Source: Methanocellales archaeon
GTDB lineage: Archaea; Halobacteriota; UBA148
DNA: 55,226 nt
Assembly (NCBI GenBank): GCA_030019435.1
Contig: JASEEV010000007.1
Location: 1 to 55,226, forward strand
Reading direction: 5' to 3'
The notes under the pieces were generated by a model that worked only from the letters and a program-made list of their open reading frames with translations, had not been told where the DNA came from and made no database searches. Positions 4,632 to 54,358 of this stretch are shown one piece after another; positions within the stretch are counted from its first letter, which is position 1, and every line of letters starts with the position of its first letter. The position numbers and the translations under genes were made by a program.

Positions 4632-5129
4632 CTATTCCAGCTTTTCCTTCCAATCTCCTTTGATATATACGGAAGCTGCCATGGCAGCCATAGCGCCCTC
4701 TCCAACCGCGGTGACTATCTGCATCCCACCACAGGTGCAGTCTCCAGCTGCAAACACGCCCTCTATGTTTGTCCTCTGATGGTCGTCAACCTTTATACAA
4801 CCCCTCTCATCCAGCTCTATGCCTACCTTTTCCATTATCTGTGTCAGTGGAACTGCGCCCAAAGAGATGAAGATGCCATCGATGGGGATTTCTCGCTCCT
4901 CGCCACCATCAAATTCGATGATCTTTATTGCCTTGACCAGGGTATCTCCTTCAATTGCTTCAACGCTTGCGTTTAAAATCTGGACATTCGTCCTCTCTAC
5001 AAGTCTTTTTCTCACTATCTCTGCGATCTCCAACTCTTTTTCGTTCGAAATCAGTATCACTCTGCTCGCAAGGTCTGCTAGTAGTAGGGCTTCTCCCGCC
5101 GCCTCATCTCCAGATCCCACCACCGCCAC
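4632..5129 (-). pseudogene. C-terminal fragment of thioredoxin reductase-like flavoprotein, truncated by IS200-like insertion
   Basis: Begins inside the NADPH-binding motif AVVGSGDEAAGEAL, ends with FAD motif GVFAAGDCTCGGMQIVTAVGEGAMAA; N-terminal FAD domain absent. Confidence 0.8.
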
Positions 5130-5547
5130 GATTTTGTCTGCGTGATGTCTGAGCTGCTTGACCTCTAACGTAGTTGGTTGTTGTCTCTAGGTCTGTGTCT
5201 CCAATGCTCCTATAGAATTTGCCAGGGCTCCAGAGATGTCCTTTCGGATATCTGAGCCTATAATCTGGCTTCCTTCTGAAAAGCTCATATGCAGAGGCAC
5301 CCTTCAAAAGGTTGAATGCCTTTGAGATACTCATCGTTGTGGGAATTTCAACGATGACATGGATGTGATCTGGCATCACGCTGAGTTCTGATATGGATAT
5401 GTTGTGTCTCTCTGCTACCTTTCTGAGCGTTTCCTCGCAAAGCTTTTTATTCTCCTCCCTCCTAAACATCTTATATCGGTACTTTGGACACCACTCAAAG
5501 TGGTAGATACTTTGTCCAATTCGATGGCTTCCGCTAACTAAATCCAT
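5104..5547 (-). mobile_element. tnpA: IS200/IS605 TnpA Y1 transposase
   Basis: Y1 family: FEWCPKYRYKMF, MPDHIHVIVEIP (HUH), candidate catalytic Tyr in TNYVRGQ; C-terminal tail probably host read-through. Confidence 0.9.
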
Positions 5548-7222: not shown

Positions 7223-7503
7223 TGCGGGGGGCAGGATTTGAACCCGCGAACTCCTACGAGAATAGATCTTGAGTCTATCGCCTCCAGTCCAACCGAGGAG
7301 AAACTACGTTTCTCCTTCGAACCTCTTTCTCTCCAAAGGGGCTCCGCCCCCTCTTGACACCCCAAGGTTCAAAGGGACAGAAACCTTTAGGTTTCTGAAC
7401 CCAGGAAATCTTCGATTTCCGTGGATGGAATCCCTTGCTGGGTTTCGAAAGGGTGAAGCCCTTCGCGAAGAAAGGTTGTTTGACCAGACTTGGCAACCCC
7501 CGC
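7223..7503 (-). tRNA. tRNA-Leu(CAA), interrupted in the D-loop (insertion ~7283-7479)
   Basis: GCGGGGG...CCCCCGC acceptor, ATAGA-CTCAAGA-TCTAT anticodon arm, class II variable arm, T-arm GCGGGTTCAAATCCTGC; D-arm halves GCCAAGTCTGGTCAA and GGCG ~196 nt apart. Confidence 0.85.
7283..7479 (-). other. hairpin-rich intron/insertion in tRNA-Leu
   Basis: Perfect hairpins at 7296-7316, 7338-7350, 7378-7397, 7404-7420; three with 3-nt loops that read C-GNA-G on the minus strand. Confidence 0.75.
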
Positions 7504-7931: not shown

Positions 7932-8068
7932 AGCCGTCGGAGGGATTTGAACCCTCGACCTGCTGATCTCTTGCCAAGGAACCTACGGTTCCCTTGACCC
8001 TCCCCAAGGGGTTTAGAAGGAAGTCCTTCGGTTACGAGTCAGCCGCTCTACCACTAAGCCACGACGGC
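7932..8068 (-). tRNA. tRNA-Thr(CGT) with intron (7968-8032) at canonical 37/38 position
   Basis: GCCGTCG/CGACGGC acceptor, GCTGA-CTCGTA^...^A-TCAGC anticodon arm, T-arm GAGGGTTCAAATCCCTC. Confidence 0.92.
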
Positions 8069-16703: not shown

Positions 16704-16816
16704 CGGACCCGGGGGGATTTGAACCCCCGACCACCGGCTGTCCACGTGCAACGGTCACGTTGTCACGTACCGTTGAATAGAAGGCCGGTGCTATATCCAG
16801 ACTAAGCCACGGGCCC
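16704..16816 (-). tRNA. tRNA-Arg(TCT) with 38-nt intron (16740-16777) at 37/38
   Basis: GGGCCCG/CGGGTCC acceptor, CCGGC-CTTCTA^...^A-GCCGG anticodon arm, T-arm CGGGGGTTCAAATCCCCCC. Confidence 0.93.
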
Positions 16817-51661: not shown

Positions 51662-51850
51662 ATCGAAGGGCTCCACCCTGCTCCATTTCGAAGGAAATGC
51701 GAGCTGTTTCATTCCCCAAAGGAAATGCGAACACTCACATTTCTCCGAAATGTGAGCACCCACAGATCTTCGATCTGTGGTTTTTCAAAACCCAGGGTTC
51801 AAAGGGACGAATTCAGGATGCGAAGCATCCGCTTCGCCATTCAAGTCCCT
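51662..51850. repeat. intergenic hairpin array
   Basis: ATTTC-GAAG-GAAAT, CACATTTC-TCC-GAAATGTG, CACAGATC-TTC-GATCTGTG, GGATGC-GAA-GCATCC nested in AAGGGAC...GTCCCTT; shares CCCA(A/G)GGTTCAAAGGGAC with the tRNA-Leu insertion. Confidence 0.8.
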
Positions 51851-51856
51851 TGGAGC

Positions 51857-54358
51857 TCATAGGATGATGTCGATGTCGAGCTCCTCTGCTAACTCCTTGT
51901 ATCGATTTCTTATCGTGACTTCAGTCACGCCTGCTACATCTGCCACTTCTCTTTGCGTCCTTCTCTCTCCACAAAGAATGGATGCGATGTAGATTGCGGC
52001 TGCTGCAACCCCAGTAGGACCTCTTCCAGAGGTCAGCTCTTTCTCCCCAGCCTGTCGTAGGATCTCGACTGCCTTAGATTGAACGTCCCCCTTCAAATTT
52101 AGACCTGAGGCAAATCTTGGAACATAATCTATGGGCGAGGTTGGTATGAGTTTAAGTCCAAGCTCCCTAGATACAAATCTGTACGTGCGCCCGATCTCCT
52201 TTCTGCCAACTCGTGAGAACTCTGAGATCTCGTCCAATGTCCTGGGCACAGAACACTGTCTACAGGCTGCATATAGTGCGGCTGCTGCAACGCCTTCGAT
52301 ACTGCGTCCCCTGATCAAATTTTGGTCCACCGCCTTCCTATAAACAACTGCAGCCGCCTCCCTGACATCTCTGGAAAGTCCCAATGTAGATGCGAGCCTA
52401 TCTAATTCTGATAATGCAAACGCTAAGTTACGTTCGGTTGCGTTGCTTACTCTGATTCTACGCTGCCATTTTCTCAGTCTATACAACTGAGCTCTGCTCC
52501 TCGATGATAGCGATTTACCATATGAATCTCTGTTTCGCCAGTCGATCATCGTTGACAATCCTTTGTCATGTATGGTGTTGTGCAAAAATATGCCGCCCAG
52601 ACCGCCAACGAAGTTCTCGTAGTTTGGCACTGACAGATCATATGCGTATTCACTTGAGGCTTTGACATTTTTCTTGCTCGTTATTCTCAGGAACACGAGT
52701 GGTGCTGTTGCGAGCTTCAGTAGCTTCTCGTCGTTGAAATCTTCTGCGATTGATATCGCAAGGTCTCTGTTGATTCGCTTTCTCTCTCTATGTTTCCACA
52801 CGTGTTTGTATTCCTGCGGTGCGGGTATTAGGTCTTCTAGTGCGCCTTTTCTTCGTCTTTTGTCCACTCTCTCAATGAATCCTAGCTCTGCTGCACTATC
52901 TGGATTTGTTATACGTGTGCCTGTGCTGTGTGACTGATCTAATTCTTGCCCTGAGGGGAGTATATGTCTTGGAATTTCTTGTTCATTGTAGTTCGCGTGT
53001 ATGCCCAGTTGGAGGTACAGCATTAGTATGTCGTTGCTCAAGTCTTTGTTCACTGATACTGTTGAAACTTGCACGACTGGTCTACTGCCGTTTTCATTTT
53101 TGAGATATACGCTACCGTCTCCGTTCACATACCCTTGCAAGAAGGCTAGTTTCATATCGTTTGATAGTGAGTAGATGAATTTTGGCACCCTTTTCTCATG
53201 AGCATTCATACCCAACTTAAATACGTCAGCAAACAATATTGCTAGGAGTTTACTGGGCACCTCGATCTGCACCGCTGATTCCTTTTGGTAAACACTTGGG
53301 TTTAGCCCAAATATGTTTCTCAGTAGGCGTTGAACTTCCTCGATGTACCCTCTCTCGTCCTTACTGAATGAGAAGTTAACATTGTGATACGTGCCCTTCA
53401 CGCTGCCCTCGCTAGCGTAGTACCCAAGAAGCTTGCACAGCTCTCCAGTGATTTCCAGCTTGATCGGCAACTCGTTTGGGCTGCTCCGAATTCCAATTCT
53501 TGCGTCACTAGGAATGCCATCAAGCATGGAGGCTATGCGTAGTGGAAGCGAGTTGCGCCTTTTCCAGTCTTTCGGTACTCTCTTTGGGGTGCCACCGTTT
53601 AGTTGTATCGCATCCAATTGAGCAAATACCTCGTCACCTATGTTTCGTACGTAAAGCCGACCATAGAGATCCTCATCGGACAGTTTTGAGAACTCATCCA
53701 GTAGGTCGATCGCTGATTTTCCACTCCCCGCAGTAGGAATGTAGTTCGGAGCAACGACGAAGTCACCCTCTCTTAGCTGAGCCACAGTGGTTGGCACAAC
53801 CTCATTGTCATGAACTGTGAAAACACTGTGCGCACCTGTGACTCGGACTTTTCGTTTGCCTTCAAGCACCAGCTCGTAGAGGTCTTCATGAAGCTTGTGC
53901 CTCGCCACATACTGAATCGGCTTAAAACTTACTTTGTAGTCCTCGTCGAATGCTACCGCATTGTATCCTTCGATCGGAACAAACTCCACTTCGCCATCAA
54001 TCTCACTGGCGATCATGTGTTTATCAACAAACTCCCCAATCTTCACTATTTCAACTTCACCACTCTTCTCATTCTCAATCACTATTGGTTCGTCGTAGTC
54101 AACACTATAGGTCATCGGTGCTCCAACTCTAGAACGCTTCATTCGTTGATCGTGATCGAAGGCTCGCCATTCAGGTCCCATGTCTATAAAATCTTCCTCG
54201 ATGACAAGACCGCATTCATCACAGACTAGCTCGGCTCTCTCATAATCATGTACAAGTTGGGTGCTTCCGCATTCTGGGCATTCTGTTTTGGTCTCCTCAT
54301 ATTCGCCCAGACCCTCACGTTCTTTTTTTATTTCCTTTGCCTTTTTGACGTCTTCCAT
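51857..54358 (-). CDS. tfb: transcription initiation factor TFB containing an intein
   Basis: Zn ribbon [39 protein letters not shown]|intein|[24 protein letters not shown]; cyclin repeats. Confidence 0.97.
52577..54106 (-). mobile_element. intein with LAGLIDADG homing endonuclease (510 aa)
   Basis: Begins [20 protein letters not shown] block [13 protein letters not shown] and [13 protein letters not shown] dodecapeptides, ends [14 protein letters not shown]. Confidence 0.95.

Follow-up and report, generated by a model that had tools for sequence, protein, structure and literature searches.

A predicted bulge-helix-bulge intron in the D-loop of tRNA-Leu(CAA) from a Methanocellales archaeon, at a site shared by leucine tRNA genes of its order

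The tRNA-Leu(CAA) gene and its insert

The analyzed stretch of DNA (hereafter the window; 55,226 nt of contig JASEEV010000007.1) carries at positions 7223–7503 of the minus strand a class II tRNA-Leu(CAA) gene that spans 281 nt in its unspliced form. As aligned to two intronless leucine tRNA genes of the same order (L151 and L159, described below), the first exon (24 nt, 7480–7503, minus strand) covers tRNA positions 1–21, i.e., the 5′ strands of the acceptor and D-stems and most of the D-loop, and ends in GCCAAGTCTGGTCAA. The second exon (61 nt, 7223–7283, minus strand) starts with AGGCGATAGAC and runs from position 22 to the discriminator base, including the CAA anticodon arm, the variable arm, and the T-arm. 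The putative intron between them (196 nt, 7284–7479, minus strand) lies at position 21/22, although a junction at 22/23 would yield an identical mature sequence, and the spliced tRNA is 85 nt long. The first-pass annotation had described a class II tRNA-Leu(CAA) with its D-loop split by about 196 nt, and both the coordinates and the size proved correct. No tRNA was called by ARAGORN in the raw window, while the spliced form of this gene was recognized as tRNA-Leu(CAA). Rfam models reported only two other tRNAs in the window, both with shorter introns in the anticodon loop: tRNA-Thr(CGT) at 7932–8068 (minus strand), whose intron contains the related module GGGAACCGTAGGTTCC, and tRNA-Arg(TCT) at 16704–16816 (minus strand). 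A core helix drawn by hand for the tRNA-Thr(CGT) intron contains a C-A mismatch.

The perfect hairpins noticed inside the insert in the first pass are present, and its predicted fold reaches –86.4 kcal/mol, compared with –65.5 ± 4.7 kcal/mol in dinucleotide shuffles (z = –4.5; none of 200 shuffles equally stable). A second or intact tRNA-Leu(CAA), which had been named beforehand as the sign of a dead gene, was not found in the source genome (94% complete); it holds one leucine tRNA gene each for the anticodons CAA, CAG, GAG, TAA, and TAG, all five interrupted in the D-loop. Introns were present in 21 of the 39 tRNA genes examined in this genome, a census assembled from stretches and searches that may be incomplete, while about 8% of tRNA genes contain introns in Euryarchaeota (PMC4090602). 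A 3′ half of tRNA-Asn with no 5′ half (L040; C11 near 126000–126500) and two halves of tRNA-Arg(CCT) located on two contigs and having complementary acceptor stems (L033; end of C26) were also observed, and these could be either genuinely split genes or places where the assembly broke within a repeat array.

The splice motif and its distribution

In introns at position 37/38, the ends of exon 1 and of the intron pair as the core helix, and each core strand is followed on its 3′ side by a splice bulge; the cut rule of archaeal EndA was the basis for the predicted 5′ splice site. One bulge-helix-bulge (BHB) motif was found at the exon–intron junctions (all positions on the minus strand), where the first-pass annotation had been unable to draw one unambiguously. 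Its 4-bp core helix pairs GGUC (G18, G19, U20, and C20a; 7482–7485) with GACU (7286–7289) and is set between two 3-nt bulges, AA^A on the 5′ side (7479–7481) and GG^A on the 3′ side (7283–7285), whose geometry places the predicted splice sites between 7480 and 7479 and between 7284 and 7283, respectively. The inner helix is formed by CAACC (7474–7478) and GGUUG (7290–7294), while the outer helix is the invariant D-stem itself, with GCC (7492–7494) pairing to GGC (7280–7282). The CAACC/GGTTG pair and the CTGG at both junctions, listed as isolated features in the first pass, are part of this structure. Cutting at the predicted sites joins GCCAAGTCTGGTCAA to AGGCG and gives a 13-nt D-loop, as in the intronless leucine genes. 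An alternative BHB, with a core built from bases of the intron 5′ end and exon 2, was rejected, as it left an overlong D-loop and the wrong order of helix and bulges, whereas the 37/38 order fits.

Leucine tRNA genes were collected in two ways, by using the gene as a BLAST query on 60 relatives and by running a degenerate pattern of its 5′ half over 11 genomes from the order, among them Met12 “Ca. Serpentinarchaeum” (G005; PMC11176372), Met33H (G008), and UBA148 (G002), to whose family the source species is assigned. Each genome had two to six leucine-like genes, with the fewest where the genome is incomplete. In total, 42 distinct intron-bearing leucine genes were recovered from the order versus only two intronless ones, both tRNA-Leu(TAG): L151 in G005 (GCCAAGTCAGGTCAAAGGCG) and L159 in G006 (GCCAAGTCAGGCTAAAGGCG), which fix the sequence of the mature D-loop. 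The point of insertion is the same to the nucleotide in 41 other distinct leucine genes of the order, which places the insert far beyond chance, and in three genes of one outside genome (G156).

The BHB was evaluated on 45 distinct genes (the 42 from the order and the three from G156). The core helix is fully paired in 42 of them; sliding its 3′ strand by one to three positions leaves no gene fully paired (16 at a slide of –4), and 98.7% of the core cells are paired in the 45-gene alignment. Over the whole motif, 87.5% of cells are paired, compared with at most 49% in slid versions, and 43 cells have changed on both sides, compared with 18.7 in shuffles (0 of 500 reaching the observed value). 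The expected leucine anticodon was called by ARAGORN in 45/45 spliced and 2/45 unspliced genes, i.e., each gene gives an ordinary tRNA of the right identity once its insert is removed. Covariation in the core helix is weak (with the 3′ strands shuffled among genes, pairing as good as that of the real set arises in 520 of 10,000 trials), because the 5′ strand is fixed by the tRNA through the conserved GG of the D-loop; a C-A mismatch occurs in the core of three Leu(TAA) genes (G001–G003). On this comparative evidence, the reading of the insert as an intron is secure.

Folding was treated as neutral with respect to the motif, because unconstrained predictions place the core above P = 0.5 in only 25 of the 45 genes and the strict form lies 0–7.3 kcal/mol (median 4.1) above the minimum. 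For the window gene, ensemble probabilities are 0.97 for the core helix and 0.98 for the D-stem, with the 3′ bulge closed. This bulge reads GGA (AGA in the sister leucine genes) and can pair with U16-C17-U17a (UCU) in the minimum-energy fold, and the strict BHB with both bulges open is 6.4 kcal/mol above that minimum; this pairing is missing in relatives whose 3′ bulge reads ATA, AAA, or GTA. The mechanism proposed below is at its weakest here: EndA would need either to trap the open form or to bring it about. The atypical processing suggested in the first pass need not be invoked, except for the mispairing that the 3′ bulge allows in this species.

Outside the order, a short-intron pattern that by its design cannot detect long introns was applied to 397 genomes of the phylum and matched seven genomes of the order, G156 (CSMAG_2293), and one gene in G392. 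The introns in the three leucine genes of CSMAG_2293 are clearly similar to those of the order. When a species-level genome collection was scanned, candidates in the same region turned up scattered among genomes of other phyla, with a complete 4-bp core in Hermodarchaeota, Geothermarchaeota, and Aenigmatarchaeota and an incomplete one in Thaumarchaeota, Bathyarchaeota, and Hecatellales, from which it follows that this D-loop site has been used repeatedly in archaea. Among the genomes scanned, only this order has a D-loop intron in a near-complete set of leucine genes, while in G156 the set is partial.

The intron interior and dispersed palindromic repeats

Leucine inserts range from 28 to 253 nt over isoacceptors and species, being 28–61 nt in most relatives and 83–241 nt in this species, and their sequences are little conserved between species. 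The extra length in this species consists of perfect hairpins, represented in the window intron by GGAAATCGAAGATTTCC (7404–7420), AGAAACCTAAAGGTTTCT (7379–7396), GGGGCGGAGCCCC (approximate; 7338–7351), and GGAGAAACGTAGTTTCTCC (7297–7315). They belong to a dispersed repeat family: GGAAATCGAAGATTTCC recurs in other tRNA introns, protein genes, and spacers, and GGAGAAACGTAGTTTCTCC also in a 23S rRNA gene. Genome searches gave 64 matches (E up to 10) with the intron as query and 39 (E up to 0.01) with a longer copy, located in other leucine introns, in the anticodon-loop introns of tRNA-Lys, Gly, Gln, Met, Thr, and Asn, and in spacers. Within the window, the genome search located another copy of the array at 51677–51814, downstream of a TFIIB-like gene; the latter (51857–54358, minus strand) encodes an 833-aa product in which, judged by eye from the translation only, there seems to be a long intein-like insertion. 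In the source genome, Leu(TAA) and Leu(CAG) have introns that are 99% identical, so introns also move between isoacceptors, and intron movement between tRNAs has been described for Thermoproteales (as cited in PMC4033280). The suggestion of a mobile insertion in the first pass accordingly holds for the interior only, where dispersed repeats lengthened a short ancestral intron, and fails for the insert as a whole.

The same hairpins also occur outside introns. In the 23S rRNA gene (L113:100–185; C65:40311–40382) they account for about 80 extra nt in one helix, and in a ferredoxin gene and a CBS-domain protein gene (L039 and L035; C22:76071–76308 and C6:13996–14060) an array lies directly before the stop codon, the sequence around CGAAGGGG...CTTG reading ...CTC–array–TAA and ...AAG–array–TAG. 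Repeats in frame and free of stop codons are found in the linker of an MBF1-like protein (L048; C11:33745), in an ABC-transporter-like reading frame (L044; C11:95848), and in an MJ1316-domain protein (L038; C44:57112), where about 70 profile positions are spread over 100 residues. A strict scan, which is a weak one as it also missed the ordinary Thr intron, found no BHB at the repeat edges in these three genes, and in-frame translation is therefore preferred over mRNA splicing there. An IS200-type Y1 transposase is encoded in the window at 5104–5547 (minus strand; PF01797, E = 1e–30) and could, speculatively, mobilize the hairpin repeats; the genome searches returned no repeat modules next to it.

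Rickettsia palindromic elements are dispersed palindromes that occupy spacers and also in-frame positions within proteins. The present family works like them, and like REP/MITE elements, in being palindromic and dispersed, with one palindrome family in spacers, RNA genes, and in-frame protein positions, an analogy that extends to the manner of occurrence only; it differs in being archaeal and in being lodged in tRNA introns and 23S rRNA.

Splicing enzymes, alternative readings, and implications

Each of the 11 genomes encodes EndA in one gene of 348–353 aa (348 aa in the source genome) that adjoins a gene identified by eye from its translation as tryptophanyl-tRNA synthetase-like. It has the α′2 arrangement, in which two EndA units stand in tandem and a single one is catalytic: Tyr284, His295, Lys326, Arg319, and Arg345 of the C-terminal half are invariant in the 11 genomes, while the catalytic His is replaced in the N-terminal half. 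The closest sequences are those of the A. fulgidus α′2 enzyme, and the predicted model (pLDDT 90) best matches the M. kandleri subunit fusion 5x89, followed by A. fulgidus 2gjw. Like A. fulgidus EndA (1RLV, 2GJW), the enzyme of the order is a tandem single gene with the catalytic Tyr/His/Lys only in its C-terminal half, has two invariant Arg at the expected places, and lacks the crenarchaeal-specific loop (CSL); it differs in being about 45 aa longer (33% identity by structural alignment) and, if the present reading holds, in acting on D-loop introns. In comparison with the 3p1y chimera, the CSL after the FYG motif, a loop that like the ASL marks broad-specificity enzymes, is absent from the order's EndA. 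RtcB is encoded in the genome as well. According to reviews, α′2 enzymes require a canonical BHB (PMC6379350, PMC4033280), and the introns of the order keep this geometry; they usually act at 37/38 (PMC4090602), which constitutes a prior against EndA acting on D-loop introns.

The BHB together with EndA and RtcB points to a protein-spliced intron at 21/22, and we consider it highly probable that the tRNA-Leu(CAA) gene is functional and carries such an intron in its D-loop. The motif, its position, its conservation, and the presence of both enzymes were established computationally; from these we infer the cutting, ligation, and charging of tRNA-Leu(CAA), with the EndA/RtcB mechanism being very likely. 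In the precursor, a helix would form between G18-G19-U20-C20a of the D-loop and the GACU at the intron's 3′ end, with 3 nt bulged out of either strand; the single α′2-like EndA would cut after the second base of each bulge, and RtcB would join the exons into a normal class II tRNA-Leu. Very probably, the intron is ancestral to the order, has been copied between leucine isoacceptors, and has reached 196 nt in this species through the gain of dispersed palindromic repeats, which would be removed on splicing.

Other explanations fit parts of these data. A mobile repeat could have destroyed this gene and left another one to read leucine codons; this would agree with an insert made of dispersed repeats and with the failure of ARAGORN on the unspliced sequence, but we judge it very improbable: the genome has no other Leu(CAA), the interruption falls on the same base in nearly all leucine genes of the order, the exons, D-stem, and splice motif are conserved, and neither an intact second copy nor decayed exons were seen. 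It is hardly more credible that the insert is retained in a mature tRNA with a giant D-arm; the predicted minimum does show it stacked onto the D-stem in a single long helix, but its length varies from 28 to 253 nt over isoacceptors and species, two leucine genes do without it, and all spliced D-loops are standard. Group I introns known from tRNA genes are located in the anticodon region, and a self-splicing intron of this type, as in some bacterial tRNA-Leu genes, has a negligible chance here despite the length near 200 nt and the heavy structure. No catalytic core was matched by Rfam models in the window, nor over the gene at a relaxed threshold, the introns of relatives (28–61 nt) are too short, and a BHB is present.

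Box C/D guides occur within some tRNA introns of archaea, and splicing as proposed could be combined with a second role of the excised intron as a guide or other small RNA, which would explain the strong fold (z = –4.5). We regard this addition as unlikely, though less so than the other three, as no guide RNA family matched, the interior is built of repeats that also occur in reading frames and spacers, and the sequence is little conserved between species.

Non-canonical archaeal BHB introns are known from Thermoproteales, Thaumarchaeota, and Nanoarchaeota, with D-region sites at 20/21, 22/23, and 25/26 (PMC4090602, PMC3218864). The introns described here resemble them in the EndA-type BHB, in a site away from 37/38, and in the similarity of introns between different tRNAs (intron transposition), but they belong to a Halobacteriota order, use one D-loop site in nearly all leucine isoacceptor genes, go together with an α′2-like instead of an (α-β)2 EndA, and reach 253 nt compared with 11–129 nt (PMC4090602). 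A few euryarchaeal cases are cited within PMC4033280 and PMC3218864 from Methanopyrus kandleri and Methanothermobacter; M. kandleri also provides the best structural match to the EndA of the order, but its enzyme is (α-β)2, whereas here there is one tandem gene and the whole isoacceptor family is affected. The rarity of introns outside 37/38 in Euryarchaeota, stated in the first pass, agrees with the literature (PMC3218864, PMC4090602) and fails for this order. While D-region BHB introns as such are known, a near-complete leucine set in a euryarchaeal order with an α′2-like enzyme is unreported in the literature searched, where no description of these leucine introns was found; the main text of the Met12 paper mentions neither tRNA nor introns (PMC11176372).

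The D-loop introns explain why simple annotation would miss leucine tRNA genes in these genomes, and the growth of tRNA introns is linked here to a dispersed palindrome family. It may be, although we stop a little short of favoring it, that an active family of palindromic repeats spreads into places where, owing to RNA splicing or to flexible protein linkers, it does no harm (rRNA expansion segments, linkers and C-termini of proteins, and tRNA introns of the D-loop and anticodon), with the tRNA introns as safe havens, and that an α′2 EndA without a broad-specificity loop let a euryarchaeal lineage grow as intron-rich as Crenarchaeota while strict BHB geometry was kept. Reviews link non-canonical tRNA introns to two-subunit EndA and Crenarchaeota-like lineages; as the order combines near-complete leucine D-loop introns with a tandem single-gene EndA lacking that loop, the two-subunit rule becomes directly testable, and the question is posed whether the 4-bp/3-nt geometry is sufficient at any position.
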